DNA of 36,235 nt from Candidatus Obscuribacterales bacterium (GCA_020050835.1 JAGVKB010000082.1:1-36235), one strand, 5' to 3'; shown: positions 8,888-24,007, numbered from the stretch's first letter. Notes: generated by a model from the sequence alone, not told the origin. Numbers and translations: made by a program.

Positions 8888-10972
8888 CTAAGCGACTCTG
8901 TCACCACCGACTGCTGAATCAGGCTGTCCGCGTGGCGTTTGGCAGTAAGGGCAAGATTCCCAGTCACCACACACGTCTGCGCAGCAAAACTTGCAGCAGC
9001 TCTCGAGCATGGCATCAGCTTTCGTAACACCACACTTCGGACAACTAGTCCAATTCTCCTCTTGTAGCGTTCCGCAACGAATGCAAGAAACCTTCAGCTC
9101 ATGCTGGCAGAATGGACATTTCACGAAATCGTCACCGATCGGATTATGGCATTTCGGACACAGCTTGTCATCACCAGCAGTATCAGATAGCGTCACTCGA
9201 ATTACTTCGTCAGTGGTAGTCAACCCCTGCCCAACCAGCCTTAAACTGTAGTCCTTGAGCGTGATCATGCCAGCCTGCTTGGCAGCAAATCGAATCATCG
9301 CCGTCGTCGCGCCGCCGGCGATCAAATCTCTCAATTCGTCGTTGACCCGCATGACTTCGTAGACACCAACCCGCCCCTTGTAGCCAGAGTCGTTGCAGCT
9401 CTCGCAGCCCTTGCCTCGCTTGAACATCGGCCAACCTTTGTTGTTGAGCTGCAATTTGAAGTACTGGACGGTCGATTCCGCCACTCTCTCCATTCCTTTG
9501 TCCATCAGCCCGAGGTATTCCAGACTCTGCTTTTCCGGCAGATACTCCTCGGTACAGTCCGGACAGATCCGCCTGACAAGCCGTTGTGCTACGACGCCGA
9601 TGGTGGCAGCGGCAGTCAAGAACGGGTCGACTTCCATCTCTTTGAGACGGCTCATGGCGCCGGGAGCATCGTTAGTGTGCAGGGTGGTAAACACAAGGTG
9701 ACCGGTCAGAGCTGCTTCGACAGCGGTTTTTGCTGTTTCACGGTCACGCGTTTCACCGACGAGCATGATGTCCGGATCTTGCCGCAGAAATGCTCTCAAG
9801 ATCCGGTTGAAATCCAATCCTTTTTCTCTCAGCACCTGCACTTGCGTGATGCCGTTCATGTCATATTCAATTGGGTCTTCCGCGGTGACTATATTGACCT
9901 CGGGAGTATTCCTTTCGGCCAGGGCCGAATAGAGAGTAGTAGATTTGCCGGAACCGGTCGGTCCGGTCACAAACAGGATGCCATAAGGCTTCTTGATCAT
10001 CTCTCTGACGACATCCAGAATGTCTTGTTCGGTCAGGAGTTTATCGAGGCCGAGTGTGGTATTCGATTTGTCCAGGATACGCATAACCACTTTCTCGCCA
10101 TGCTTGGCTGGAATTGACGAAACCCGGAAGTCGATATCTCGACCGGAGAATCGCACCCGAATCCGTCCGTCTTGCGGCACTCGGCGCTCGGCGATATCGA
10201 GATCGGCCATAATCTTGTAACGAGAAACAAGCGCTGCCAGAATCGCTTTTGGTAGTCTCCGGTCGATGAACATTACGCCGTCCAGGCGATAGCGGACGGT
10301 CACTTCGCGCTCCTGCGGCTCGATATGTACATCAGAGCATCGCCGCTTGATCGCCTTGGCAAGAATTTGATTAGCCAGAAGCACAATCGGTGCATCCTGA
10401 GCCTGGCGGGCCAGATCAAGATCGTTTACGTCTTCGTCCGACTCGGCCATGACATCGAGCGTGCTCAGGTCGACATCGGCTTCAATGAAGCTCTTATCAG
10501 CCTCTTCGTACGTTTCCTCAACTAATTCTTCCTGCCGCTTGGCGTAAATGGTTTCCATAAAATGCTGGAAATCATCTTCGGTGCAAACCACCGGCTTAAC
10601 TTGAATGCCCTTCAATCTATACTTGACATCATCGAGCGCAATCAAGTTGTTTGGATTAACCATCGCCAAAGTCAAGCGATTGCCTTGCCTGGTGATCGGC
10701 ACCACCTGATATTGGCGCATCACCGATTCCGGCAAGACGTACATGACGTCCGGGTCGGCTTCGGTCTTGGACAAAGAGACATAATTGACGCCGTATTGCA
10801 GTTCGAGCGCGTTCTTGAGATGGTTTTCAGTAGCCAGTCCCAGTCTCGACAGGATCAAACTAATCGGCTCACCGGTCTTCTGTCGCTCGGCCTGGACAAG
10901 TGCTAGCTCCTCTTGAGTAATCAGTCCGTTGTCGACCAGCAGCTCACCGATTTCTTTTTTGACAAGAGCCAT
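8888..10972 (-). CDS. pilB: Pilus extension ATPase PilB with C-terminal zinc-ribbon tail
   Basis: PilB is the hexameric ATPase that drives pilus assembly through PilC. This 694-residue copy has the N-terminal GspE/MshEN-type domain (about 1-145) and an acidic linker (about 148-185). The ATPase core has Walker A GPTGSGKST at 337-345, DPDIMLVGETRD at 399-410 and GHLVFTTLHT at 424-433. The usual zinc-binding loop is present (C470, C473, C523, C526). Beyond the normal end, residues 605-677 add six further Cys pairs (605/608, 619/622, 630/633, 644/647, 660/663, 674/677), which reads as three zinc ribbons in a row. Ordinary PilB proteins stop near residue 590-600. The ATG at 10970-10972 starts the pilB-pilT-pilC run. 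Confidence 0.95.
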   Translation of the reverse strand: MALVKKEIGELLVDNGLITQEELALVQAERQKTGEPISLILSRLGLATENHLKNALELQYGVNYVSLSKTEADPDVMYVLPESVMRQYQVVPITRQGNRLTLAMVNPNNLIALDDVKYRLKGIQVKPVVCTEDDFQHFMETIYAKRQEELVEETYEEADKSFIEADVDLSTLDVMAESDEDVNDLDLARQAQDAPIVLLANQILAKAIKRRCSDVHIEPQEREVTVRYRLDGVMFIDRRLPKAILAALVSRYKIMADLDIAERRVPQDGRIRVRFSGRDIDFRVSSIPAKHGEKVVMRILDKSNTTLGLDKLLTEQDILDVVREMIKKPYGILFVTGPTGSGKSTTLYSALAERNTPEVNIVTAEDPIEYDMNGITQVQVLREKGLDFNRILRAFLRQDPDIMLVGETRDRETAKTAVEAALTGHLVFTTLHTNDAPGAMSRLKEMEVDPFLTAAATIGVVAQRLVRRICPDCTEEYLPEKQSLEYLGLMDKGMERVAESTVQYFKLQLNNKGWPMFKRGKGCESCNDSGYKGRVGVYEVMRVNDELRDLIAGGATTAMIRFAAKQAGMITLKDYSLRLVGQGLTTTDEVIRVTLSDTAGDDKLCPKCHNPIGDDFVKCPFCQHELKVSCIRCGTLQEENWTSCPKCGVTKADAMLESCCKFCCADVCGDWESCPYCQTPRGQPDSAVGGDRVA

Positions 10973-11072: not shown

Positions 11073-12773
11073 GTGCCGGGGTTTATGTTCCCGAGCCTGG
11101 CTGGTATTAAACCTAGACTGAATCGACGACGAGCTGAGCCAACAACAGTTTTGACAGCCAAAGAAATCACCGCTCTTTTATTTATTTTCCTGCTAGCTGC
11201 CGGTTTGCGTCTTGGTGGAATTACCTTTGACAGCTTGTGGCTGGATGAGTCGTATCAGACATTCACTGAAACCATCGCTCAGCCTCTGCCCGATTTCACC
11301 CGCATTCCGGATGCTCCTTTTCTCTTCAAGTTCGGACCACCCCAATCGGTCGCCACCGTTCTATCCAACTTTCGAAAGGTCGACCCGCTCTGCCCTCCAC
11401 TCTACGCAGTCTTGCTCAATCGATGGATGACCGTCTTCGGAGCAAGCGATTTCGCCGCCCGCAGTCTTTCATCCCTGCTGTCCATGCTCTCGCTGCTGGT
11501 TCTTTTTTTCAGCTGCCGATCTTTTTTTGGAACGTTGCCGGCTCTCTTTTCAGCCCTCTTGGTCGCCGTCTCGCCTTTCGATATTCACTATGCGCAGGAA
11601 GCCCGCATGTACGGGCTCCTGCTCTTCACTTCCACCCTGTCAGGCTCAGCGCTGCTCGGCTTGTGTTTACGCGTCCTATCCAACCGGAAGGACGAAGGAA
11701 AGCCTCGAACCGAACCGGTAGCGCCACAAGAAACCGGCAGCGGCTCGGCGCACTCCGTCGGCTCAACGGTTGAATGCGCTTTGCTGGCGGTCACCTACAG
11801 CGTATCGACCTGGGCCCTTATCAACAGTCACTATACAGCTCTGTTCGTGGTTTTATTTCAGGGGCTCTACTGTACCTGGCTTTGTTTCAGGCATCGCAGC
11901 CTGAAGCTCTTTGTAATTTTGAGCATATGCTGGCTAAGCGTGCTAGCTATGTGGCTGCCCTGGTTCGATCTCTTTCGGCAGGCGGCAGCCGCCAGAACCG
12001 AGTCTTTCTACGTTATTCGCCAACCGAGCTTGTGGTGGCCGTTTTGGGCACTAATTGCCAGAATACCCTTCAACTGGCTCGTGTTTCTCTCAGGCAAGCA
12101 AGTGGTTGCGTATGCGATACCACTTTACGTGACGTCTTCAATATTAGTCGCAGCCGCCAGTTCATTGGTAAACCGTCTCAGACCCGCAGCCCCATTCGAC
12201 CAGAACCAGTCGTTCTGCAAACAATTTATCTGGCTTTGGGCGATCATGCCACCGCTGCTGGTGTGGCTCATCGACGTAATCGAAGGACACAAAGTCGTGG
12301 AGATCGCTCGTTATCTCACAGCGACAGCGCCGGCAATTTACTTCCTATGCGGGTGCGGAGCGCAGGCACTATTGGCGATGCGCGGCTGGGCAAAAGTGCT
12401 TCTAGTTGTGCATGTCGCCTGCGCGCTAGTCAACAACGCTTACGGACACATCATGACGCAGCGAGAGCCCTGGCAGGAGATGGCGGCGCTTGTGGAAAGG
12501 CAGGTTAAGACTGATGAACCGCTCCTGGTGAGCCAGTATTACGACATAGTTTGCCTGGACAGATATCTGACCGTGCCGCTGCTGCAAATAGGCGTATCGC
12601 CGGCATTAGGCGCCGAACGCCTGGCCAGCTTGCTTGCCGGACGCAAGCGGTTCTGGTTGATCACCGCGCAGGAAGGTGAAGCGATCAAAAACATGATTCC
12701 CGGCGATTACAGGCTGAGGCAACAGACAGACTTAAGGCATGCCCTGCACTTGCGCTTGTACGAAAGACAGTAA
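11073..12773 (+). CDS. GT39-like polytopic membrane glycosyltransferase
   Basis: This 566-residue membrane protein resembles the ArnT/PMT family (GT39, GT-C fold), which moves a sugar from a polyprenyl-phosphate donor to an acceptor outside the inner membrane. After a short basic N-terminus comes the first helix (about 31-48), then SLWLDESYQT. The acidic pair D58/E59 matches the catalytic loop-1 position of the family. About ten further helices follow, and a soluble C-terminal domain begins near residue 460. The SQYYDIVCLDRYL segment in it is typical of bacterial members. The start is GTG at 11073 or ATG at 11085. It is convergent with a GT2 gene that could make the lipid-linked sugar donor. 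The acceptor is unknown and could be a polymer, lipid or pilin. Confidence 0.8.
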   Translation: MPGFMFPSLAGIKPRLNRRRAEPTTVLTAKEITALLFIFLLAAGLRLGGITFDSLWLDESYQTFTETIAQPLPDFTRIPDAPFLFKFGPPQSVATVLSNFRKVDPLCPPLYAVLLNRWMTVFGASDFAARSLSSLLSMLSLLVLFFSCRSFFGTLPALFSALLVAVSPFDIHYAQEARMYGLLLFTSTLSGSALLGLCLRVLSNRKDEGKPRTEPVAPQETGSGSAHSVGSTVECALLAVTYSVSTWALINSHYTALFVVLFQGLYCTWLCFRHRSLKLFVILSICWLSVLAMWLPWFDLFRQAAAARTESFYVIRQPSLWWPFWALIARIPFNWLVFLSGKQVVAYAIPLYVTSSILVAAASSLVNRLRPAAPFDQNQSFCKQFIWLWAIMPPLLVWLIDVIEGHKVVEIARYLTATAPAIYFLCGCGAQALLAMRGWAKVLLVVHVACALVNNAYGHIMTQREPWQEMAALVERQVKTDEPLLVSQYYDIVCLDRYLTVPLLQIGVSPALGAERLASLLAGRKRFWLITAQEGEAIKNMIPGDYRLRQQTDLRHALHLRLYERQ

Positions 12774-12828: not shown

Positions 12829-13653
12829 TTACGGTCTAAACAGCGGGCTTTTTGCCATGCCGGTTTTAGCGGACACAAACTTTACCAGCGAACCAAGCAC
12901 TCCCAATCCATATTTGACGCTGTTCCAAAAATTGATCGAGGAAGCTTCCGGGAAATAACGCGTCTCAACCGGAATTTCGGCGATCTTAAAGCCGAAATAC
13001 ACAGCCTGGCAGAGGATCTCCGCATCAAAAACGAAGGCAATCGAGTTGCGCAAGAACGGGACACGCTCGAGAAACTGCTTACTATAGGCGCGGTAGCCGG
13101 TATGAAACTCCGAGAGGTTTGTGCCCAACACCATATTTTGCATAGTGGTCAAAAACCGGTTCGAAATGAATTTATAGATCGGCATTCCACCCTTCAGCGC
13201 TCCGCCGCCAAGAAAACGCGAACCGAGAACGATGTCTGCCGTTCCGTCCAAAATCGGTGCAACCATCTCGGGAATCTTGCGCGGATCGTACTGATAATCC
13301 GGATGCAGCATAATCACTATCTCTGCGCCATCACGCAAAGCTTCCAAATAGCAAGTTTTCTGATTTCCGCCATAGCCGACATTATGCGGGTGTCGGATAA
13401 CTTTGATATCGAGCGTGCTGCCGACAGCGACCGTATCATCCTTGCTGCAGTCGTCTACCAGAATAACTTCAGACACCAGCCCTTTGGGAATCTCATCAAA
13501 GGTCTTTAAGAGCGTCTTTGCTGCATTATAGGCAGGCATCGTTACGACTATGCGCGGTGTATTGGTACGCCCGGGAGCCGCCGTTGATTTGAAGGTTGAC
13601 TTGAGCGCCCCTGATTGCGACGACTCTTGACTTGCTGTGAAAGTATTGACCAT
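12829..13653 (-). CDS. Family 2 glycosyltransferase, dolichol-/polyprenyl-phosphate sugar synthase type
   Basis: This 274-residue enzyme has the GT-A fold of DPM1-like GT2 transferases, which load a sugar from a nucleotide donor onto polyprenyl phosphate. It shows RIVVTMPAYNAAKTL at the start of the domain (about 34-48), EVILVDDCSKDDT (62-73), and HNVGYGGNQKT (90-100). The metal-site region is LHPDYQYDP (116-124), where D119 stands in the DxD position, and EFHTGYRAYS follows later. There is no clear C-terminal membrane helix. The first 30 residues are Ser/Thr-rich and probably disordered. The ATG at 13651-13653 has a strong AGGAAGG SD, and a stem-loop lies directly upstream. It may supply the lipid-linked sugar for the convergent GT39-like enzyme, which is inference from neighbourhood. 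Confidence 0.88.
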   Translation of the reverse strand: MVNTFTASQESSQSGALKSTFKSTAAPGRTNTPRIVVTMPAYNAAKTLLKTFDEIPKGLVSEVILVDDCSKDDTVAVGSTLDIKVIRHPHNVGYGGNQKTCYLEALRDGAEIVIMLHPDYQYDPRKIPEMVAPILDGTADIVLGSRFLGGGALKGGMPIYKFISNRFLTTMQNMVLGTNLSEFHTGYRAYSKQFLERVPFLRNSIAFVFDAEILCQAVYFGFKIAEIPVETRYFPEASSINFWNSVKYGLGVLGSLVKFVSAKTGMAKSPLFRP

Positions 13654-13691: not shown

Positions 13692-13830
13692 GCCGGTGAA
13701 AGTCAATTTGATGAGCTACGTTTAGTTTTGCGCGCCCAAGGCGCTAAGCCTCATTTCATCATCCAGGCGGAAAAGAGGCTCCTCAACCGCGTCAGGTGAT
13801 TTGTGTACCGATTTTGCGGATAGACATCTG

Positions 13831-13848
13831 TCGAAAACTATTTTTCGA
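13831..13848. promoter_or_regulatory. Perfect AT-rich hairpin upstream of membrane TPR gene
   Basis: TCGAAAA-CTAT-TTTTCGA is a perfect 7-base stem with a 4-base loop. It lies 106 bases before the ATG of the downstream membrane TPR gene and within the 301-base divergent region shared with the GT2 gene. The rest of that region shows no convincing promoter by eye. Confidence 0.35.
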
Positions 13849-13954
13849 ACAGTTAAGGCTTAATCTGATTGCTTGTTTGATCGGCAGATTAGTCGTGAAT
13901 AATTCAGATTACGAAATCGAGCGCCAATTCCGCTATTCAAACAGAGTCACTGTT

Positions 13955-15238
13955 ATGACCCAACCGGAAAGTACCGAGACTGCCACCGAAAAACCTGCAC
14001 TAGCAGGTCAGGACGTAGCTTACGGAACAATTCCAACTAACTTCAATCATCGTGGCTTCACTTTAGTCGGCACGACCTTCGTCGTCTTTGAAGGCATCTT
14101 TCTGACGCTTTACGGTAGTGATTTCTGGTTCGACTGGGATCTCTCGCTCTTCGGCATACCGACGATCATCTTCGCCGCTGTAATAAGTCATATCCTTTTA
14201 CTTTCAGTCGAGAGTAAATATGGCTGCATTTTTTTCTCTCCGATCTGGAAAGGCTGCCCACCTACGGTTTATTGGAGGTTGGTGAGCACGACGAGCTTTG
14301 GCATCACCTTTGGGGCCCGGCACATGAAATGGGAAGCAGTCGATGAACTGTTCCTGACATTTCTCGGCAACCTGCTGGTCAGATCCCGGATGATCTGCGG
14401 CAAAGAGGCGCGCGAAGCGGATTTACTGGCCAAGATACCGGTCGGAACGGTGCCGACGGATTACCAAAGAAGGCTAGTCGAGTCGGTCCGGAGCAAGAAC
14501 CCCGATCTAAAAACCAATCGTCGCCTGGACAAACGGCTCCAGACCAAAGATCTCAAAGGCACCGCCTTCATTCAATCTTTCGGCGTGATTTTCATGATCT
14601 TGATACTGCTCGACCTTGGCCGGTCTACTTTTGCCTTTCTTGAGATGAACAAGGACTACTTCTTATCCCAATTGAGAGCGAAGGACGGCAAGGTCGCCGA
14701 AGCGAAGAGATATCTCGCAGCAGCAGATTCTCTGCATGAGCACCCGTTTCCAGTTTCCTGGGTAGACACCAAATTGCTGAGGCAGGGAGTGGTAGCAGCC
14801 GGCGTGCATCAGCTTCGCTCGGAAGCGCTCTGGCGATTGGATCGCAAGGACGAAGCGATTGAAGAGGCAAAGAAAGCGATTGAAAGCTCACCTGACAGCT
14901 TTAGAATGAACCTGCGACTGGCAAGACTTTATGCCGACACCGGCAAACTTTCAGACTGCCGCCAGCAGATTCGCAAAGCGATCAAGAATCACAACGACTC
15001 GTTGCTGCCGAGGCTGTATATGCTCGCCGAGCTGGCCGCCGAGCACAATAATGCCCAGTTGAGCAGCTTTTATCAAATTTACCTCGATGAGATGATCGAC
15101 CTTGTCTACGGTGAAGAACCAAATTGGCCGCCAGGCGGCAACCGCTTTCTTCACGAGGTTTTCTTCTCGGAAGATGTCACATTCGTTTTCGATCGGCTCC
15201 TGAAGAACCATAACGAGAGCACTGATGAGAAAAGGTAA
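13955..15238 (+). CDS. Membrane protein with C-terminal TPR-like repeats, function unknown
   Basis: I do not recognise a named family. From the ATG at 13955 the protein is 427 residues. A polar N-terminus of about 30 residues leads into two adjacent membrane helices (roughly 38-57 and 63-87). A soluble basic segment follows, then a third helix near 215-235. The C-terminal half has TPR-like helical repeats, seen in RSEALWRLDRKDEAIEEAKKAIESSPDSFRMNLRLARLYADTGK-type spacing. The frame is open upstream to a GTG at 13796, but that extension crosses a perfect hairpin and has no SD, so I prefer the ATG. It sits among surface-polysaccharide genes, and a scaffold role in that machinery is possible but unproven. 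Confidence 0.6.
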   Translation: MTQPESTETATEKPALAGQDVAYGTIPTNFNHRGFTLVGTTFVVFEGIFLTLYGSDFWFDWDLSLFGIPTIIFAAVISHILLLSVESKYGCIFFSPIWKGCPPTVYWRLVSTTSFGITFGARHMKWEAVDELFLTFLGNLLVRSRMICGKEAREADLLAKIPVGTVPTDYQRRLVESVRSKNPDLKTNRRLDKRLQTKDLKGTAFIQSFGVIFMILILLDLGRSTFAFLEMNKDYFLSQLRAKDGKVAEAKRYLAAADSLHEHPFPVSWVDTKLLRQGVVAAGVHQLRSEALWRLDRKDEAIEEAKKAIESSPDSFRMNLRLARLYADTGKLSDCRQQIRKAIKNHNDSLLPRLYMLAELAAEHNNAQLSSFYQIYLDEMIDLVYGEEPNWPPGGNRFLHEVFFSEDVTFVFDRLLKNHNESTDEKR

Positions 15239-15371: not shown

Positions 15372-16595
15372 GTGGAGTCGGTCTTGAACGACAGCGGTTC
15401 TCCTTCGAAATATTTCCCGCCGGCGATGACCATTGCTATCGCCTTGGTGATCGCTCTGGAGATTTGGCTGGCGGCGGCTCACCCGCTTACAAACGTACCA
15501 ATTGCTTCCCTTGAACGCAGCGAAATCTTTCAGGCTGTAGATTCGTACCGCCGCCAACCCGGACCGGCCGATATCATACTTTTCGGTTCGTCATTAATGA
15601 CGGCACCGGTGCTGCAAAGCGAAGCGCTGTATCTCAACCAACCGCTTCCAAAATTCACCCATCGCAACACGCATGTACTGGCAAAAGCTCTTGAGCGCCG
15701 CCTCGGCCGAGAGCCAAGCACCTTTTGCCTGGCTTCCGGTGGGCAGATGGCTTCGGATGTTTATCGCACTACCAAGAACGTCTTGCGGTCCGACAAACAG
15801 CCGATCGCCATCATATACGGTATCGCGCCTCGAGACTTTCAAGACAATTTGGTGCCCGCAGTCGAGTCAACTCCTGTCTTTCAGTCGCTCGCCACCATTG
15901 AAGATTTACCGGAAAGGCTGGCATCCGGTCCCTTTCGCCTCAAGGCAAAGGTAGATCTCGTGCTCGGTCGCCTCTCTCTTCTGTGGCGATACAAAGCGGA
16001 CATGCGTAGTTATTTAACGCTGCGCATGAAAAAGTATATGGAGCGATTCCTGCCCTGGGTCTGCTTTGAGAAGTACAACGAGCGACACGAGCTCAAACAA
16101 CAGAAACGCGGGCTTTTCCCTGAAGAGGCGGCCGGAGTGCCGACCGCCTGGCCGGGTATAGCGCTCGATCACCTCACTCCGCCGCAAATGCTGGCTGATT
16201 ATGACTGCCGCTACAACCCCGTGTCAAAACAGCAGGTAGCGGAGCAGCTGTCCTATTTCCAGCGCTTTCTGGAACTTTGCAAGCAACGAGGAATCGCAGT
16301 ATTGGTGGTCAACATGCCGCTGAGCAAAGCCAACAAAGCGATGCTCGCCCCATCCCTGGTTCAAGACTATTTGAGCGCGACCCAAAAGCTCTGCAAGCAG
16401 TATGAAGTCGACTATCAAAATCTCAATCAAGACAGTTGGGACAAGGCGGACAACTTCATCGACACTGTTCATCTCACTCCCGCCCGGTCGCAACCGTTCA
16501 TGGAGGAGCTGGCGGTGCTGGCGGCCCAGTCGCAGGTAGCGCTGGCGCTCAAGAGCGGCAAGGCTACGCTCGCTCAGCGTGGACACCAGCTCTGA
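15372..16595 (+). CDS. DltD/DUF1574-like membrane-anchored SGNH protein (copy 1)
   Basis: This protein of about 407 residues should be anchored by one N-terminal membrane helix, with its SGNH-hydrolase-like domain outside the inner membrane. Numbered from a TTG at 15351, the nucleophile motif is FGSSLM (S80/S81), block II is LASGGQMASD, the core strand is YGIAPRDF, and the catalytic pair is DTVH (D371, H374). This is the serine plus C-terminal DxxH pattern of DltD, which works with the MBOAT protein DltB in surface-polymer acylation. I place the start at GTG 15372, because GGAAG lies 8 bases upstream. ATG 15426 is possible. Three paralogues lie nearby on the other strand. Its stop overlaps the next start by one base. 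Confidence 0.8.
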   Translation: MESVLNDSGSPSKYFPPAMTIAIALVIALEIWLAAAHPLTNVPIASLERSEIFQAVDSYRRQPGPADIILFGSSLMTAPVLQSEALYLNQPLPKFTHRNTHVLAKALERRLGREPSTFCLASGGQMASDVYRTTKNVLRSDKQPIAIIYGIAPRDFQDNLVPAVESTPVFQSLATIEDLPERLASGPFRLKAKVDLVLGRLSLLWRYKADMRSYLTLRMKKYMERFLPWVCFEKYNERHELKQQKRGLFPEEAAGVPTAWPGIALDHLTPPQMLADYDCRYNPVSKQQVAEQLSYFQRFLELCKQRGIAVLVVNMPLSKANKAMLAPSLVQDYLSATQKLCKQYEVDYQNLNQDSWDKADNFIDTVHLTPARSQPFMEELAVLAAQSQVALALKSGKATLAQRGHQL

Positions 16596-17335
16596 TGCGC
16601 AAGCCGGCTAGCTTCGAGTCTTCAAGCTTTCCTGTCCACTGGACGATGCTCGGGCTGACCAATCGCCGCCGCCAGCGGATTCGCAGCGCCGCTCCCGCAC
16701 CGCTGCTTCTTTTATTTCTGGCAATCCTGATCTGTATCTGCTTATGCTCTTGCACCTTGACCAGAGATATCGACAGTACCAAGCAGTGGCTCCTTTACAT
16801 GGAAGCCGCGCACGCAGCGAAACTACAAGCGCGCTACCGCGACGCCGAAAGGCTCTACCAGTCCGCTCTGAAGGAATCAGAACGGCAGGGCAAGGAGAAT
16901 CGGCTGGTGGCAGCAAGTTTGGACAGCCTGGGAACGCTATATAGCGTGCAGGCTCGTTTCGATCAGGCGGAAAAGTACTTTGTTCTGGCTGTTTCAACGG
17001 CGAGGAAGACCGTTTCCAAAGACGATCCGGATCTAGCCGCATATCTGGATAATCTGGCTGAGTGCTTTGTGACAAAAGGTGAGCTTCAAAAGGCGGAATC
17101 TTCTTACAAAGAAGCGATTGCGATCTGGAGCGCTATGCCTAGCCACAAAACGGATCTGGCTCTAAGCCAGCTCAAATTGGCTAATGTCTACTACTACCAG
17201 GACAGATTGACCGATGCCGAGCCTCTTTTTCAGGTTGCGTTGCCGATTGCAGTCAAGGCACCACTAGTGGACAGCCGATTGATCGAGCATTGTAGCCAGT
17301 CCTACGCCAAAATTCTCAGTAAACGGGAGCGCTGA
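16595..17335 (+). CDS. TPR-repeat lipoprotein
   Basis: This 246-residue protein starts at the ATG that overlaps the TGA of the preceding SGNH gene (TGATG), so translation is probably coupled. A basic N-terminus precedes a hydrophobic stretch (about 36-50) ending in LCSC, a lipobox with acylated cysteine C53. The mature part holds at least four TPR units of the kinesin-light-chain spacing. They can be seen in the repeated pattern of ARYRDAERLYQSALKESE, ARFDQAEKYFVLAVSTARK, GELQKAESSYKEAIAIW and DRLTDAEPLFQVALPIA. TPR lipoproteins usually act as adaptors. The coupled gene order suggests it partners the SGNH protein at the envelope. The longer frame starting at 16436 overlaps the SGNH gene and is rejected. 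Confidence 0.78.
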   Translation: MRKPASFESSSFPVHWTMLGLTNRRRQRIRSAAPAPLLLLFLAILICICLCSCTLTRDIDSTKQWLLYMEAAHAAKLQARYRDAERLYQSALKESERQGKENRLVAASLDSLGTLYSVQARFDQAEKYFVLAVSTARKTVSKDDPDLAAYLDNLAECFVTKGELQKAESSYKEAIAIWSAMPSHKTDLALSQLKLANVYYYQDRLTDAEPLFQVALPIAVKAPLVDSRLIEHCSQSYAKILSKRER

Positions 17336-17342
17336 AAGATGC

Positions 17343-17372
17343 CTGACTGCCTACTACTGCCGCTGCAGTCAG
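17343..17372. terminator. Hairpin between convergent TPR lipoprotein and SGNH genes
   Basis: CTGACTGC (17343-17350) and GCAGTCAG (17365-17372) form a perfect 8-base stem with a 14-base loop. It fills the 33-base gap between two convergent genes and reaches into the stop codon of the minus-strand one. There is no T-run, so it may be a bidirectional end signal of the weaker kind. Confidence 0.4.
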
Positions 17373-18631
17373 TGCGCCACAGTCGATGACGTTGCCGCCA
17401 CACTCTCCGGCTCGGCCCGCGGCTGACTGAGGCTGGCGACGACTGCCTGATCGCTGGCCACTGCCTGCGCTATCAACTTAAACAGTCGAGCTCCGCCTTG
17501 AGCGTTTAAGTGCACCGTGTCCAAGAAGTCTTCAGTTTCGAATCCGTTTGCATCGCAATAATCAATCCAACGCGCGCCGTGCTGCTGGCAAGCAGACGCG
17601 ACCTTCTGTTTGAATTCAACCCAGAATTTGTCAGGGATAATCTCGCGGGTGGGCCAGAGGTTCGGCATGCCTACCACTATTACCTTGATCCCCGAGTCTT
17701 GCAAGAACGCAAGCTGCTCGTTGAAAAACGCCTGCTCGCTGGAGTATACAGGCGGATACGGATTGCGATAGCGATGTTCGTATTCAGATGTATTGTCGAT
17801 CAACCCAATTGGAATATTGGCTGGAATCAAGAGCACCCCTGGCTTGAGATCGCCCGCGATATCCGAAAGCGCCTGCGCCATTTGATTCTGTGCCAGATGC
17901 TTGTCGAGCGGCTTGGCCTCGACTTCGGCTTGCTCCGGCTGATTGCCTGAAGGTGTCAACAGCCTGCGCAACGGCAAATCCTTGCTCATTACCCAGCCGA
18001 GATGGGCGATCGGATCGGGAAATGCTTTGCCGCCCATTTCATGCAGGTTGACACACGGCGCATAGAACTGAAAGGGCTCGGTGGCGGAGGCGGCATTAAG
18101 ACTGTTGTCGATAAAGTCTCGGGGCGAAACACCGATGATAACGACCTTAGGTTTTCGCTGTCCTTGGAAAAGCGCACGACTTAACATGTATCCATCGGAT
18201 ACCATGAAGCCGCCTTGCGAACAGTTGAAGACGCTGTAATCTCTGCCCAGAGTGTCTTTCAACGCTTCCTCCAGCGTCGAGGCTCGCCGATGTTTCAGAA
18301 CATCCATGGCGTGCTGCTTCAATTGCGCATCGGCAGCGAACGTCGCTGACGCCATTTGCGAGCTGCCGATCAAAGCGATGTCCGGCGCGCCTGGCTCATC
18401 TTCATAAGCTCTCGTCGTCCACCAGCTAAATGTACGATTTTTCGCCGTCTTCAAGAGCTCCAGAACGCTCTTATCCGGATCCAGTTTTGTGCCGGCGGAA
18501 GAGAGAATCTGCCCGGTTGAGACATTCACCAAAACGAAACAAAAGACCGCCACAGCAAACGAGCTGTGAACCAGCGCCTTGAACAGCGACATGTATTTCG
18601 AAGGTGGTGGTTCGGCTTTTGTGTTTGTCAT
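17369..18631 (-). CDS. DltD/DUF1574-like membrane-anchored SGNH protein (copy 2)
   Basis: This 420-residue protein is the last gene of the MBOAT operon. It has a short cytoplasmic N-terminus, one membrane helix (about 19-37) and an extracytoplasmic SGNH-type domain. The motifs are IGSSQM (S90/S91), NCSQGGFMVSD, IGVSPRDFID and DTVH (D371, H374), numbered from the ATG at 18629-18631. That ATG lies 4 bases after the stop of the upstream paralogue and has little SD, as expected for coupled translation. A longer frame from 18736 would overlap the upstream gene by about 100 bases, so I reject it. The middle of the protein is the most divergent from the other copies, and the PVPAG loop they share is absent. 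It probably acts on a different acceptor or step. Confidence 0.82.
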   Translation of the reverse strand: MTNTKAEPPPSKYMSLFKALVHSSFAVAVFCFVLVNVSTGQILSSAGTKLDPDKSVLELLKTAKNRTFSWWTTRAYEDEPGAPDIALIGSSQMASATFAADAQLKQHAMDVLKHRRASTLEEALKDTLGRDYSVFNCSQGGFMVSDGYMLSRALFQGQRKPKVVIIGVSPRDFIDNSLNAASATEPFQFYAPCVNLHEMGGKAFPDPIAHLGWVMSKDLPLRRLLTPSGNQPEQAEVEAKPLDKHLAQNQMAQALSDIAGDLKPGVLLIPANIPIGLIDNTSEYEHRYRNPYPPVYSSEQAFFNEQLAFLQDSGIKVIVVGMPNLWPTREIIPDKFWVEFKQKVASACQQHGARWIDYCDANGFETEDFLDTVHLNAQGGARLFKLIAQAVASDQAVVASLSQPRAEPESVAATSSTVAH

Positions 18632-18635
18632 TGGT

Positions 18636-19913
18636 TCAGTGAAGTCGAGGTCTCTTATCCGGTCTGGATTCCGCAAAGAAATGGCGATCGAGCTCTTTAC
18701 CAGCCAACGCCAGTGCGCTCGCGGCGCGCATATCAACAGTCAACGCTTGCACCAAAAGGTCAAGAAACTTTGTCCCGCCGAACGCGTTCATATGCACCGT
18801 GTCGTGAAAGTCCGGTACCCGAAATGCATCGAAATCGCAAAGGTCGAAGTAAGTAATCTTGTCCTGGTCGCAGATGGCGCGCATAGCTTGTTTGTAGTTG
18901 TAGAACACTTGCGGATGCAAGATCATCGCATTCTCAATCGTGACCGGCATATTCACGACGATCAGCTCGATCCGCTCTTTACGGCAGAACTTAGCCATTT
19001 CACGCAGGAAATAAATCTGCGTTTTGTAGGTTAAGGGATCAGGAGACTTATAACGCGCTTGATACTCCTTCGTGTTGTCGGAGTAGGCAGCCAACGCTTC
19101 CTTCAGTGTCGTGGGCGTAGACATGACTGCATTTGGAATGATCTCGCCGGGCAGATAGTTAGGCAACAGTTTAGTCCTGTCCCACCAGGTAAATGGCTTG
19201 CCACCGGCAGGCACGGGCAGCAGACCAGACAGCAGGCCGGTAGTCAATTCGATGCTGGCCAGCTGAAAGTCCATCGCCTTTCCGTACAGATAAAAGTTGC
19301 GCTGCAAAAACCAGTCAAGTTTGGCCAGCGGCGTGCGAAACATCCAATTGGCCACATCGTCAAGATTGACCAATCTACGGAAATACCGAAACGGCTCCGT
19401 GTCGACCGGACTGCTCAAAGTGCTATCCAGAAAGTCTCTCGGCGCGATGCCATAAATCACTACATCCGGCCGATGCGCGCAATTGACCATCGCCCGCAAT
19501 GCCAGGTAAGCATCAGACGGCATCTGACCGGGCAGAGCGAGATTGAAGGTGCTAAAGCTGCCACCGAATGTAGTGCGCAGCCTGTGATCCAGATAAGCGG
19601 CCTTGTGATACTGCGTCAGGTCGAGCCCCTTTTTGTGATAGTTCGCGTCACAGGCGGCAATGGCACTTACCACAAGCGACGAACCGAGCAGAACGACATT
19701 GTGTACGTCGGCACTGGTACGCAAGTCATTCATCGCCCACCAGGCCCAGCCTTTAACCGGAAAGCGATACTGGTCGAAAGGAATGGGGGTATTGAAATCA
19801 AGGTAGAAATTGAGCGCGCCAAACAAAACCAGAGCAAGCAGAAATGTGCTCTTTATCCGCCTGGCTGGTTGCGCAGGCAAGGCATTGTCAACTACTGCTC
19901 GCTCAGTGGACAT
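18636..19913 (-). CDS. DltD/DUF1574-like membrane-anchored SGNH protein (copy 3)
   Basis: This 425-residue paralogue has one membrane helix (about 23-39) followed by the extracytoplasmic domain. The motifs are LGSSLV (S78/S79), FNLALPGQMPSDAYL, YGIAPRDFLD, IVVNMPVT and DTVHMN (D371, H374). It shares long stretches with copy 4 just upstream, such as the LPGxMPSDAYL and PVPAG segments, so the two come from a fairly recent duplication. The ATG at 19911-19913 has AAAAGGA about 5 bases upstream. It lies 18 bases after copy 4 and 4 bases before copy 2. Known DltD-type proteins help an MBOAT partner pass acyl groups onto a surface polymer. Hydrolase or transferase activity here is inferred from the intact motifs. 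Confidence 0.83.
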   Translation of the reverse strand: MSTERAVVDNALPAQPARRIKSTFLLALVLFGALNFYLDFNTPIPFDQYRFPVKGWAWWAMNDLRTSADVHNVVLLGSSLVVSAIAACDANYHKKGLDLTQYHKAAYLDHRLRTTFGGSFSTFNLALPGQMPSDAYLALRAMVNCAHRPDVVIYGIAPRDFLDSTLSSPVDTEPFRYFRRLVNLDDVANWMFRTPLAKLDWFLQRNFYLYGKAMDFQLASIELTTGLLSGLLPVPAGGKPFTWWDRTKLLPNYLPGEIIPNAVMSTPTTLKEALAAYSDNTKEYQARYKSPDPLTYKTQIYFLREMAKFCRKERIELIVVNMPVTIENAMILHPQVFYNYKQAMRAICDQDKITYFDLCDFDAFRVPDFHDTVHMNAFGGTKFLDLLVQALTVDMRAASALALAGKELDRHFFAESRPDKRPRLH

Positions 19914-19931
19914 CGGTTTCCTTTTTTGCTG

Positions 19932-21278
19932 CTAGAGAGCCGAGCGCCCGGCATCGGCAACTCGCTTTTCCGGAATCGACTGAGACGAGGCAGATCTGTT
20001 CTTAGACCCGTTATCCAGCTCGGGCAATTCCAGTGCCGTACGCACTGCTTTATCTTGAGCCATCTGCTCGACGACTAGATCCAACATCTTCTTCCCGCCT
20101 CCAGAGTGAAGATGCACAGTATCCATAAAATCCGAAACATTGAACGTCTTGGTTCCTTGCAGATCAACAAACGTAGCCCCTTTCACGGTCGAGAGCACGT
20201 GGACGCTCTTGCGATAGGCCTCCCATGAATAGTCTTTGATCAGCGATCGATTGAGATCGGTAATCGGCATCGAAACAATCACCACCTGAATTCCGCGCTG
20301 CTGGCATATATCGAGCAGCTCGGCGAAGAAGCGCATTTGGGAGGTGAAGGTATCCCATTTGACATGCGCGTAACGCTTCTTGTACTCGGCCAAATTATCG
20401 GCAAAGTGCTCGGCTTTCGACGGTCTGAAGTAGGCTTCGGCGCGATTCAATTCAGCCGGGCGATAGTCCGGCAGAAGCATTCTTCGTTGTTCGACAGAGT
20501 AGGGCTTTGCGCCTGCAGGCACCGGCATCAACCCAGAAAGCTGCTTGCTTGCCAGCTGCACCCATTCGGCCACGAGATCCTGTTTCAGCCCATACAAGTA
20601 AAAGGTTCGGCTGATATTGAAATTTAGCCGGTCGATCCAATCCGGAGTCATGCGATCGATCATGCTGCTGACATCGCCGAAGCGAATCAGACTGCGATAT
20701 GGGTCGGTGGCCCCGGGATTCGGCAGGAGATTATCCATAAAATCGCGAGGCCCCAGACCATATACAACCACTTTCGGCTTGTTTTCGCGATTGAGCAAGA
20801 AGTCGGTAATCAGATAAGCATCCGACGGCATCTCACCCGGCAGTGCGAAATTGAAGCTTCGGACAGCTCGACCGGTCTTAGCCTTGAGCCTGCTCTCGAA
20901 GTAGGCGCTTTGATGATGCTGGCTCCCATCCAGCCGCCTATTCAAGAAATTGGCGTCGACTCCGGCAACCGGTACGAGCACCAGTGAAGAGCCAAGAAAA
21001 ACGACATCAGGAGCGCTCTTAGCGGACAAGAAGTCCTGAATGGCCCAGCCGGTCCAGGTACTTTCCGGAAACTTTTCGGCCGGCACTCTTGCAAAATCAA
21101 AAGTTGCCGCCAGTCCGCACACCACCGCAAATATGATCGAAGCAATTACGGAGCGACTGGTCAGAAAGTTCTCCAGGAAGCAGGACACAACGCAGTTGTC
21201 ACCGGACTCGCGGCAAGAATGTCGCAAGTCTCCCGCAGCTTCGCGGTTCGCCATAGTGACTGGAGCGCTTGCACCCAT
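19932..21278 (-). CDS. DltD/DUF1574-like membrane-anchored SGNH protein (copy 4)
   Basis: This 448-residue protein is the first SGNH gene after the MBOAT gene, and its ATG overlaps the MBOAT stop by one base (TAATG at 21280-21276). It has a longer polar N-terminus, a membrane helix at about 43-60, then the SGNH-like domain. The motifs are LGSSLV (S97/S98), FNFALPGEMPSDAYL, YGLGPRDFMD, IVSMPIT and DTVHLH (D386, H389). An Asn- and Ser-rich tail of about 30 residues follows. The tight coupling makes it the most likely direct partner of the MBOAT enzyme. It is closest to copy 3, with which it shares the RxFYLYG and PVPAGxKP segments. Confidence 0.84.
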   Translation of the reverse strand: MGASAPVTMANREAAGDLRHSCRESGDNCVVSCFLENFLTSRSVIASIIFAVVCGLAATFDFARVPAEKFPESTWTGWAIQDFLSAKSAPDVVFLGSSLVLVPVAGVDANFLNRRLDGSQHHQSAYFESRLKAKTGRAVRSFNFALPGEMPSDAYLITDFLLNRENKPKVVVYGLGPRDFMDNLLPNPGATDPYRSLIRFGDVSSMIDRMTPDWIDRLNFNISRTFYLYGLKQDLVAEWVQLASKQLSGLMPVPAGAKPYSVEQRRMLLPDYRPAELNRAEAYFRPSKAEHFADNLAEYKKRYAHVKWDTFTSQMRFFAELLDICQQRGIQVVIVSMPITDLNRSLIKDYSWEAYRKSVHVLSTVKGATFVDLQGTKTFNVSDFMDTVHLHSGGGKKMLDLVVEQMAQDKAVRTALELPELDNGSKNRSASSQSIPEKRVADAGRSAL

Positions 21279-22735
21279 TAGAACTGGAAGTAGATAAACC
21301 GTGGTGAACTATCCGGACTGAATATGGTGAGCAAACACATGAGAGCCACCATCACACCTACCTGCAGGGCCCATGGCGGGCTCAGATAGAAGCGTTTGTC
21401 ATTGAGCCAATTGACTACCGGTTGAGCGATCATCAAAATGGGCAGAATGATTAGCAACGCCGGAAATACGATTGGATCTCTAATTTGCAGGACAGATAGT
21501 TGTTGCATCGAGAAGTGAAGCAGCGCAGCCGGCGCCTGCACTAGCTGAGAAATGATTGCGCATGCATCTTGCATGTTCTCGGCCCGAAAAAACACCCAAC
21601 CGATACAGACAAAATGGAAGGTCACCACCACCGAAACTGCATGGTAAATCTTCGATTGCAAAAGACTCTTAGCCAATCCGGACTTTTCCAGCAGGCGCGA
21701 ATACTCACGGTGAGCGATCAAGAGGATGCCTTGATACGCGCCCCATACGAGGAAGTGCATAGCCGCACCGTGCCACAGACCTCCCAGCGTCATCGTGATA
21801 AACAGGTTACGATACATCTTCCACTGGCTGCAGCGGGAACCGCCCAGCGGAATGAACAGATAGTCGCGCAGCCAGGTGGACAGCGAGATATGCCAGCGAT
21901 GCCAGAAATCGGCAACATTGGAAGCTATATAAGGCAGGTTGAAGTTGATCGGCACCTTGTAGCCGAACAGAAGCGCCGAACCTCTGGCGATATCCGTGTA
22001 TCCGGCGAAATCAAAGAAGATCTGGAAAGCGAAAGCATAGGTGATCAGCCACAGATCCAACGAAGAAAAATTGCCCGGATGGGAGAAGCCTGCTTGCGAT
22101 ACGAGCGCTAAATTGTCAGCGATCAACACCTTCTTGAACAAGCCCATTAAGATAAGCTGCATTCCTTCATCGAGATATTGCCATTTAAACTTAGCGGGGA
22201 TATCCAGCTGCGGAATGAAGTCCTGATACCGTTTAATCGGACCAGCAATTTGCGTCGGGAAGAACGAGGCGAACAAAGCGAAATCGAAGAACTTCTTTAC
22301 CAGCGGTTTACCGCGATAGACTTCGACTGCGTAATGAATAAACTCGAAGACGAAAAATGAAATGCCTAGCGGCAGAATGATATGCAGATGGGGCTCACGG
22401 AATTGAACGCCGAATAAGTTGAGCGTGTCCTTGACCGTAATGAGCGAGAACGTCGCGTACTTGAAGATACCGAGCGTAATCAGGTTGGCGGCAACTACCA
22501 CGCCGAGCCACCATTTCTTGTCCTTCTGTTCGGTCGCCTTGGCTATTAGCGGCACAAGCAAGAAGTTGCCGAGCGTCAGGCCAAAGATGAGCAGTCCGTA
22601 AATCGGCCGCCAGGACATGTAGAACACATAGCTAGCCACCAAAAGCAGTGGCACCCGAAAGCGGTGTGGAGTGATCCAGAACAGCACAAAGACTGTCGGA
22701 AGAAATACCAGGTACTGAAGACTGTTAAAAAGCAA
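21278..22735 (-). CDS. MBOAT-family membrane O-acyltransferase (AlgI/DltB/PatA-like)
   Basis: This 485-residue polytopic enzyme should move an acyl group, usually acetyl, across the inner membrane for transfer to a surface glycan. It starts MLFNSLQYLVFLPTV, the typical AlgI-like opening. It contains FFPTQIAGPIKRY (158-170), FDFAGYTDIARG (241-252), and FWHRWHISLSTWLRDYLFIPLGG (277-299, H279). The catalytic histidine is H322 in GGLWHGAAMHFLVWG. The start is TTG at 22733-22735, well supported by AAGGAG 8 bases upstream. It heads an operon with three DltD-like SGNH genes. I call it MBOAT family and not algI, because no alginate genes are here and the polymer is unknown. Confidence 0.93.
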   Translation of the reverse strand: MLFNSLQYLVFLPTVFVLFWITPHRFRVPLLLVASYVFYMSWRPIYGLLIFGLTLGNFLLVPLIAKATEQKDKKWWLGVVVAANLITLGIFKYATFSLITVKDTLNLFGVQFREPHLHIILPLGISFFVFEFIHYAVEVYRGKPLVKKFFDFALFASFFPTQIAGPIKRYQDFIPQLDIPAKFKWQYLDEGMQLILMGLFKKVLIADNLALVSQAGFSHPGNFSSLDLWLITYAFAFQIFFDFAGYTDIARGSALLFGYKVPINFNLPYIASNVADFWHRWHISLSTWLRDYLFIPLGGSRCSQWKMYRNLFITMTLGGLWHGAAMHFLVWGAYQGILLIAHREYSRLLEKSGLAKSLLQSKIYHAVSVVVTFHFVCIGWVFFRAENMQDACAIISQLVQAPAALLHFSMQQLSVLQIRDPIVFPALLIILPILMIAQPVVNWLNDKRFYLSPPWALQVGVMVALMCLLTIFSPDSSPRFIYFQF

Positions 22736-23275: not shown

Positions 23276-24007
23276 TTAATCCGGCTCTCTCGGGTCGGAA
23301 GCTTGCCGGCTGAAGCCTTCTGGAATCAACTGGTAGCCGCCGCCATAGACAGTTTTTATGTACTTGCGATCGGAGGTCTCCAGTCGCGTTCTCAAGTGGC
23401 GAATATGAACGCGAATGGTATCTACGTCATCATCTGGCGAGTATCCCCAGACCTCTTCCAACAGCTTACCGGTCGAAACCGTCTGCCCATGATGCTGCAT
23501 CAAGCAATGCAAAATTTCAAATTCGGTCGGTGTCAGTTTGACTATCCGTTCTCTTACCTTCGCCTGCAGGTTCTCCGGTATGAGCGTTATCTCGCCAGCC
23601 GTCAGGATCTCCGGCAGCGAGGCAGACTCCGGCACCGAACCCGATCTTCTCAACAGGGCGCGGACTCTGACTTGCAGCTCGGGAATTTCAAATGGCTTGA
23701 CAAGATAATCGTCAGCACCGGAATCAAACCCGGTAACCTTATCCCTCGTCATTCCGAGCGCAGTCAACATGAGCACAGGAATGGTCTGAGTCTGTGGATT
23801 CTGCCTGAGGCGCTGGCAAACAGTGAAGCCATCCAGGTCAGGCATCATGACATCAAGCACGATCAGGTCCGGTCGATTCTGCTGGGAAAGCGCCAGACCC
23901 TTTATACCGTCGGGGCAGGTTGTGACGTGATGTCCAAGCAGCTCCAGATTTACCTTTACGAGCTCAGCAATGGCCTGGTCGTCGTCGATTACGAGAATTC
24001 TGCTCAA
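23276..24007 (-). CDS. OmpR/PhoB-family response regulator
   Basis: This 243-residue two-component transcription factor has an N-terminal receiver domain (about 1-120) and a C-terminal winged helix (about 140-235). The acidic pocket is IDDD near residue 8-10. The phosphoacceptor is D52 in [10 protein letters not shown], with T82 and K104 (LVKPFE) in place. The DNA-binding part shows [34 protein letters not shown] and TVYGGGYQL, the standard winged-helix pattern. It is close in style to cyanobacterial regulators such as RpaB, although I cannot assign orthology. The start is TTG at 24005-24007 with GGAG 7 bases upstream. It lies 24 bases after htrA. No histidine kinase gene is present in the window. 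Confidence 0.92.

Follow-up and report, generated by a model that had tools for sequence, protein, structure and literature searches.

The locus

The locus lies on contig C26 of the 7.0 Mb genome of a Candidatus Obscuribacterales bacterium, within a stretch of 36,235 nucleotides (GCA_020050835.1 JAGVKB010000082.1:1-36235) that was analysed at its full length and is termed the window here. The minus strand carries, in tandem, an MBOAT gene and three genes for SGNH proteins, denoted SGNHa, SGNHb and SGNHc; a fourth SGNH gene, SGNHd, is on the plus strand (Table 1). The MBOAT and SGNHa frames overlap by one base (TAATG), and gaps of 18 and 4 bases separate SGNHa from SGNHb and SGNHb from SGNHc respectively. 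The stop codon of SGNHd overlaps the start of a TPR gene by one base (TGATG). The open reading frames agree with a preliminary description of the DNA in both the MBOAT-SGNH-SGNH-SGNH operon with these junctions and the TPR-coupled fourth SGNH gene on the opposite strand.

Table 1. Genes of the cassette and its neighbours, with positions in the window.
Feature	Position	Strand	Remarks
MBOAT protein, 485 aa, TTG start	21278..22735	-	Pfam MBOAT 2.4e-30
SGNHa, putative membrane-anchored DltD-like SGNH transferase, proposed first client	19932..21278	-	clade of 36, support 100
SGNHb, proposed second client	18636..19913	-	clade of 39 (a few extra copies included), support 100; AF2 pLDDT 84
SGNHc, proposed third client, fastest evolving	17369..18631	-	clade of 36, support 100; AF2 pLDDT 81
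SGNHd, fourth SGNH, facultative associate	15372..16595	+	clade of 13, support 100
TPRm, membrane TPR protein 5' of SGNHd	13796..15238	+	TPR domains
TPR protein, hydrophobic N-terminus, possible lipoprotein, coupled to SGNHd	16595..17335	+	TPR_12 5.2e-21
OmpR-type response regulator, conserved gene upstream of the operon, listed for context	23276..24007	-	84-93% identity, equal position at relatives' loci

Elsewhere in the window there is a PilB-like ATPase (8888-10972, minus strand) with a C-terminal extension carrying several CxxC zinc-ribbon-like motifs, which is unusual-looking for a pilus ATPase. Between this gene and TPRm lie a PMT-type (PMT_2) membrane glycosyltransferase (11073-12773, plus strand) and a GT2 protein near the polyprenyl/dolichyl-phosphate sugar synthases (12829-13653, minus strand). 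The proximity of these two genes to the SGNH locus makes extracytoplasmic glycosylation possible there.

Conservation of the cassette

A scan of public genomes using an alignment of the four SGNH sequences returned 75 loci, and protein search placed the great majority of the relatives among Candidatus Obscuribacterales / Melainabacteria MAGs. Besides the window, 32 of the scanned loci carry the complete cassette, i.e. MBOAT, SGNHa, SGNHb and SGNHc on one strand and in equal order. The a-b-c order is unbroken in all 32, with three SGNH genes in the operon at each, and the median junctions are 20, 4 and 5 bases for start codons chosen by script. Incomplete loci are mostly truncated where the contig ends; one (L058), with SGNHa and SGNHc only, may be a genuine exception. 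At the loci of relatives the upstream genes, Der-(PlsY)-HtrA-response regulator, are likewise kept.

An orthologue of SGNHb was found in 31 of 37 Obscuribacterales genomes searched (E<=1e-170), with a second SGNH gene adjoining it in nearly all. An SGNH profile at E<=1e-40 matched every genome of the family to which the cassette belongs (38/38), as against none of 79 other genomes of the class. Other families of Cyanobacteriota mostly have one much longer DUF1574 protein, and tandem arrays of DUF1574 proteins were absent from those searched. We note that these frames, of about 1000 residues and mostly single-copy, occur in many genomes of the other families (e.g. G143:C1:24205-25143).

The cassette pattern is therefore far above chance, given 32 complete loci and four paralogue clades each with support of 100. 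The one-to-many arrangement, for which a survey of related genomes had been suggested, is conserved across the order, and a chance rearrangement of separate MBOAT/SGNH pairs is ruled out by the 32 syntenic loci. The ratio of four SGNH proteins to one MBOAT originally proposed has to be modified, since the core unit is one to three and SGNHd is loosely attached (10 of 32 loci).

SGNHd and the TPR proteins

Where SGNHd was found within the fetched flank of a complete locus, it is on the opposite strand and always 3' of SGNHc. Relatives of TPRm are present 3' of SGNHc at 19 loci and adjoin SGNHd in most of the loci that have it; TPRm is present, too, at some loci in which no SGNHd was detected. 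We therefore take a-b-c as the system and SGNHd as a facultative associate, and TPRm is at most a partner of SGNHd. Both TPR proteins had been suggested as scaffolds. Of the two, TPRm is conserved. For the putative TPR lipoprotein, a search of the fetched loci at E 1e-8 found nothing apart from the window's own copies; it is probably incidental, and a conserved or general scaffolding role for it is not supported.

The interval between SGNHc and TPRm varies among relatives, and may hold a class II tRNA synthetase with an editing domain, an Exo_endo_phos protein or a nickel insertion protein; no clue to the acceptor was found in the gene clusters of this interval. The Exo_endo_phos-family protein occupies the place that SGNHd has in other genomes at L046 (15292-16578), L047, L048, L053 and L056. 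In six relatives a different TPR gene is directly 3' of SGNHc.

The SGNH paralogues

The four SGNH proteins of the window align over their full length, with 22-33% identity to SGNHa. They share the motifs GSS, G-M-SD, PRDFxD, YxxRY, MP and DTVH, and, following the third strand, have GxxPRDF where GxND would be canonical. In each the serine comes first, in block I, and the DxxH is C-terminal. The predicted catalytic residues are Ser98, Asp386 and His389 in SGNHa, Ser79, Asp371 and His374 in SGNHb, Ser91, Asp371 and His374 in SGNHc, and Ser74, Asp364 and His367 in SGNHd. The triad is invariant in all 121 cassette orthologues examined, which extends the initial observation that GSS and DTVH are kept and that no copy is obviously dead; a dead or scaffold paralogue is ruled out. 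The invariance in all of the SGNH lines also argues against a dead relay or a regulatory subunit.

In a tree of 175 SGNH proteins the cassette members form four clades, each with support of 100. Between 4 and 12 positions are differently fixed per pair of paralogues, compared with 0-1 between subclades of one paralogue. Several of the positions that separate paralogues flank catalytic motifs; P103/A84, for example, follows the serine and E149/Q130 the block II glycine. With separate clades, fixed differences and an invariant triad, the duplications are old and predate the sampled species, with the copies kept active and different.

A hydrophobic N-terminal segment is present in 35/35 SGNHa, 32/35 SGNHb, 32/33 SGNHc and 11/11 SGNHd sequences, although for SGNHb the scan window can overlap the first strand. 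The proteins are near or below the gathering score of DUF1574 (PF07611; 29.1 bits), with SGNHd scoring 28.9 (or 30.4 in the genome search) and the other three less. They differ from the single protein of about 1000 residues that is typical of other Cyanobacteriota. DUF1574 is matched by 21 of 27 relatives at E<=0.01.

Structural models of SGNHb and SGNHc

For both SGNHb (pLDDT 84, pTM 0.82) and SGNHc (pLDDT 81, pTM 0.78) the AlphaFold model comprises an N-terminal helix (residues 23-41 and 24-45 respectively) and an SGNH domain. The top Foldseek matches of both are crystal structures of DltD, with E values of 1.3e-5 for SGNHb and 4.6e-6 for SGNHc. By VIA-align the Z scores are 13-16 to SGNH esterases (over about 165-210 residues) compared with 13.6-14.7 to DltD (264-281 residues), so that the two roughly tie and the fold comparison excludes neither PatB nor the esterases. 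A profile search of the PDB with the SGNH sequences gave no significant match, and the fold assignment therefore rests on the models. SGNHb and SGNHc are predicted to have the SGNH/DltD fold, in keeping with the SGNH catalytic site expected from the preliminary description, and SGNHa and SGNHd are assigned to it by alignment.

The MBOAT protein and the acyl donor

The MBOAT protein is 75-82% identical to its orthologues and matches DltB structures in the PDB (8e-35). The histidine of its WHG motif (His322) is invariant in the aligned orthologues. Its C-terminus, FIYFQF, conforms to FXYXXF, and this is found in every cassette MBOAT with a complete C-terminus. FXYXXF at the C-terminus of an MBOAT is an acyl-shuttle motif, also described for DltX (PMC12148441). 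In PatA the tyrosine of this motif is auto-acetylated from acetyl-CoA, and the acetylated peptide can be used by PatB as donor (PMC12148441). Because the cassette MBOAT ends in the acyl-shuttle motif of PatA, the chemistry is very probably that of PatAB. In another MBOAT of the source genome (L102:4470-6011, minus strand, contig C109) there are 26 more residues past FIYFQF, so that the shuttle motif lies short of the extreme C-terminus.

No match to DltC (TIGR01688) was found in the genome, which is 95.7% complete, while Bacillus and Lactococcus controls were positive. An acyl-CoA donor is therefore more likely than D-alanyl-DltC. Against the Dlt equivalogs, the MBOAT scores 196 of the 375 bits required for DltB and the SGNH proteins at most 18.6 of the 150 bits for DltD. 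A Dlt system using D-Ala is rejected on these scores and on the DltC result. Matches to TIGR01734 all fall far under the cut-off, and are uninformative about DltA because the search was also positive in 12 of 14 control genomes.

Other MBOAT and SGNH loci

The source genome has eight other MBOAT proteins. Those with a linked SGNH protein of the cassette family have exactly one each (two on contig C63, and one on each of C89 and C2), and for the remainder none was detectable in the fetched stretches. On C63 an MBOAT 70% identical to that of the cassette is followed by a single b-type SGNH. In one genome (L062) SGNHd adjoins a different MBOAT, which most resembles another MBOAT of the source genome. 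We note also that the gene after the C56 MBOAT encodes a protein weakly matching GDSL lipases, and that five cassette-family SGNH genes of the same genome (L107, L108, L109, L110 and L111) have no MBOAT inside a 10 kb stretch; these would need an MBOAT in trans.

Rates of conservation were compared in 19 genomes that have both cassette and single-partner loci. The median pairwise identity is 76.4 for the cassette MBOAT and 68.9 for the single-partner MBOAT, and is higher for the cassette in 170 of 171 genome pairs, which are not independent. The corresponding medians are 51 for SGNHa and SGNHb, much like the 48 of the single-partner SGNH, and a lower 40 for SGNHc. The greater conservation of the MBOAT is what a hub under constraint from several partners would show, although other causes could explain it.

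Proposed mechanism and alternatives

We propose that the cassette encodes an MBOAT-SGNH module for envelope acylation, with three client O-acyltransferases, and perhaps a fourth, supplied in parallel by a single acyl-shuttle MBOAT; we regard this as probable. On the cytoplasmic side the MBOAT would accept an acyl group, most likely a short one such as acetyl that comes from acyl-CoA, and load it on Tyr482, in the FIYFQF tail at its extracytoplasmic C-terminus. From this tail the group would move to the catalytic serine of one of the clients SGNHa, SGNHb and SGNHc, whose N-terminal helices would hold them at the membrane. Every client would acylate a hydroxyl of its own on an envelope glycan; the clients would work in parallel and compete for one shuttle. 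Homology suggests the acyl-tyrosine and acyl-serine steps, while we infer the parallel division of labour, the donor and the acceptors. That the single acyl-tyrosine shuttle is a shared hub, distributing acyl groups to three or four dedicated transferases and thus giving several envelope modifications, is a proposition on which we are evenly balanced.

Clients acting in parallel on different acceptors are the most likely arrangement, and the chief alternative is a relay, in which the MBOAT tyrosine would give the group to the serine of one SGNH, from which the next SGNH would receive it, with the last alone touching the polymer. This is the published model for the two SGNH proteins of alginate and cellulose acetylation (PMC4148444, PMC10302187), and the fixed a-b-c order and tight spacing suggest co-assembly. 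Yet b- and d-type clients can exist apart from the set, with a lone b-type SGNH beside its own MBOAT on C63 and SGNHd beside a different one at L062, where the other members are seemingly not needed. This favours parallel clients. Moreover, all the SGNH proteins here have the S...DxxH arrangement of DltD and PatB, unlike AlgJ as described, and we consider a relay unlikely.

A division into writer and eraser would make one or two of the SGNH proteins O-acyltransferases and another an O-acylesterase removing the same group. Ape1-type esterases accompany PatA/PatB, SGNH folds are compatible with hydrolysis as well, esterases and DltD appear together in the Z-score lists, and SGNHc evolves faster than the others (median identity 40 vs 51). 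Against this, all four proteins have GxxPRDF rather than GxND, nearly every orthologue has the anchor-like N-terminus that a shuttle client would need, and DltD was ranked top by Foldseek for both models, so that an eraser among them seems unlikely. The tandem homology and identical active-site residues could alternatively reflect duplication into three interchangeable transferases kept for dosage. However, the copies have low mutual identity and differently fixed positions, their duplications are older than the sampled species, and some lineages should have lost redundant genes, whereas the a-b-c order is kept in all complete loci. Such redundancy is very hard to sustain.

If parallel clients are correct, one channel would control several envelope modifications, a one-to-many acyl distribution not described before, and several acylated envelope sites would be under one control in the Obscuribacterales. 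This is a little-studied non-photosynthetic cyanobacterial group for which we found no studies of envelope chemistry, nor any acyltransferase papers on Obscuribacter in the literature searched. Studies of one-to-one systems established the acyl-shuttle mechanism, and a relay has been invoked for two-SGNH cases. A conserved one-to-three operon that keeps all its active sites provides a natural test separating relay and parallel models.

Comparison with known systems

In the PatA/PatB peptidoglycan O-acetyltransferases, an MBOAT with a C-terminally fused FXYXXF motif acts with a membrane-anchored SGNH protein having an S...DxxH triad, without DltC. The cassette likewise links such an MBOAT to SGNH proteins with this triad and a putative membrane anchor; the difference is one SGNH per MBOAT there and three here, sometimes with a fourth nearby. 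The DltB/DltD/DltX system is resembled in that the MBOAT matches DltB structures and the SGNH models match DltD best in Foldseek. By contrast, DltC was not found here, the motif is fused to the MBOAT whereas it is on DltX in that system, and the scores are far under the equivalog cut-offs. The AlgI-AlgJ/AlgX and WssH-WssI/WssF systems likewise combine a single MBOAT with multiple SGNH-like proteins, but these are two SGNH proteins together with AlgF or WssG in a polymer-specific operon, while the cassette has three homologous DltD-type proteins beside housekeeping genes. In AlgJ the Asp and His of the triad are in a cap segment before the Ser (PMC4148444). This cap arrangement of AlgJ/AlgX is absent from all four SGNH proteins here, in which the Ser precedes a C-terminal DxxH.

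The early suggestion of an undescribed system was thus too strong, since the chemistry matches the MBOAT-SGNH acyl shuttle (PMC12148441) and the two-SGNH systems AlgJ/AlgX and WssI/WssF are known. One SGNH per MBOAT is typical but not strictly defining, as Alg and Wss have two, and the cassette departs from it. No description of a one-to-three MBOAT-SGNH system was found in the literature searched, the coverage of which was incomplete, and the genomes surveyed for the arrangement were of Cyanobacteriota. What is unusual is one shuttle with three proposed client transferases and sometimes a fourth, where described systems have one or two. By its motifs and predicted chemistry the module belongs with the MBOAT-SGNH acyl-shuttle systems, and differs from them in its conserved one-to-three stoichiometry.
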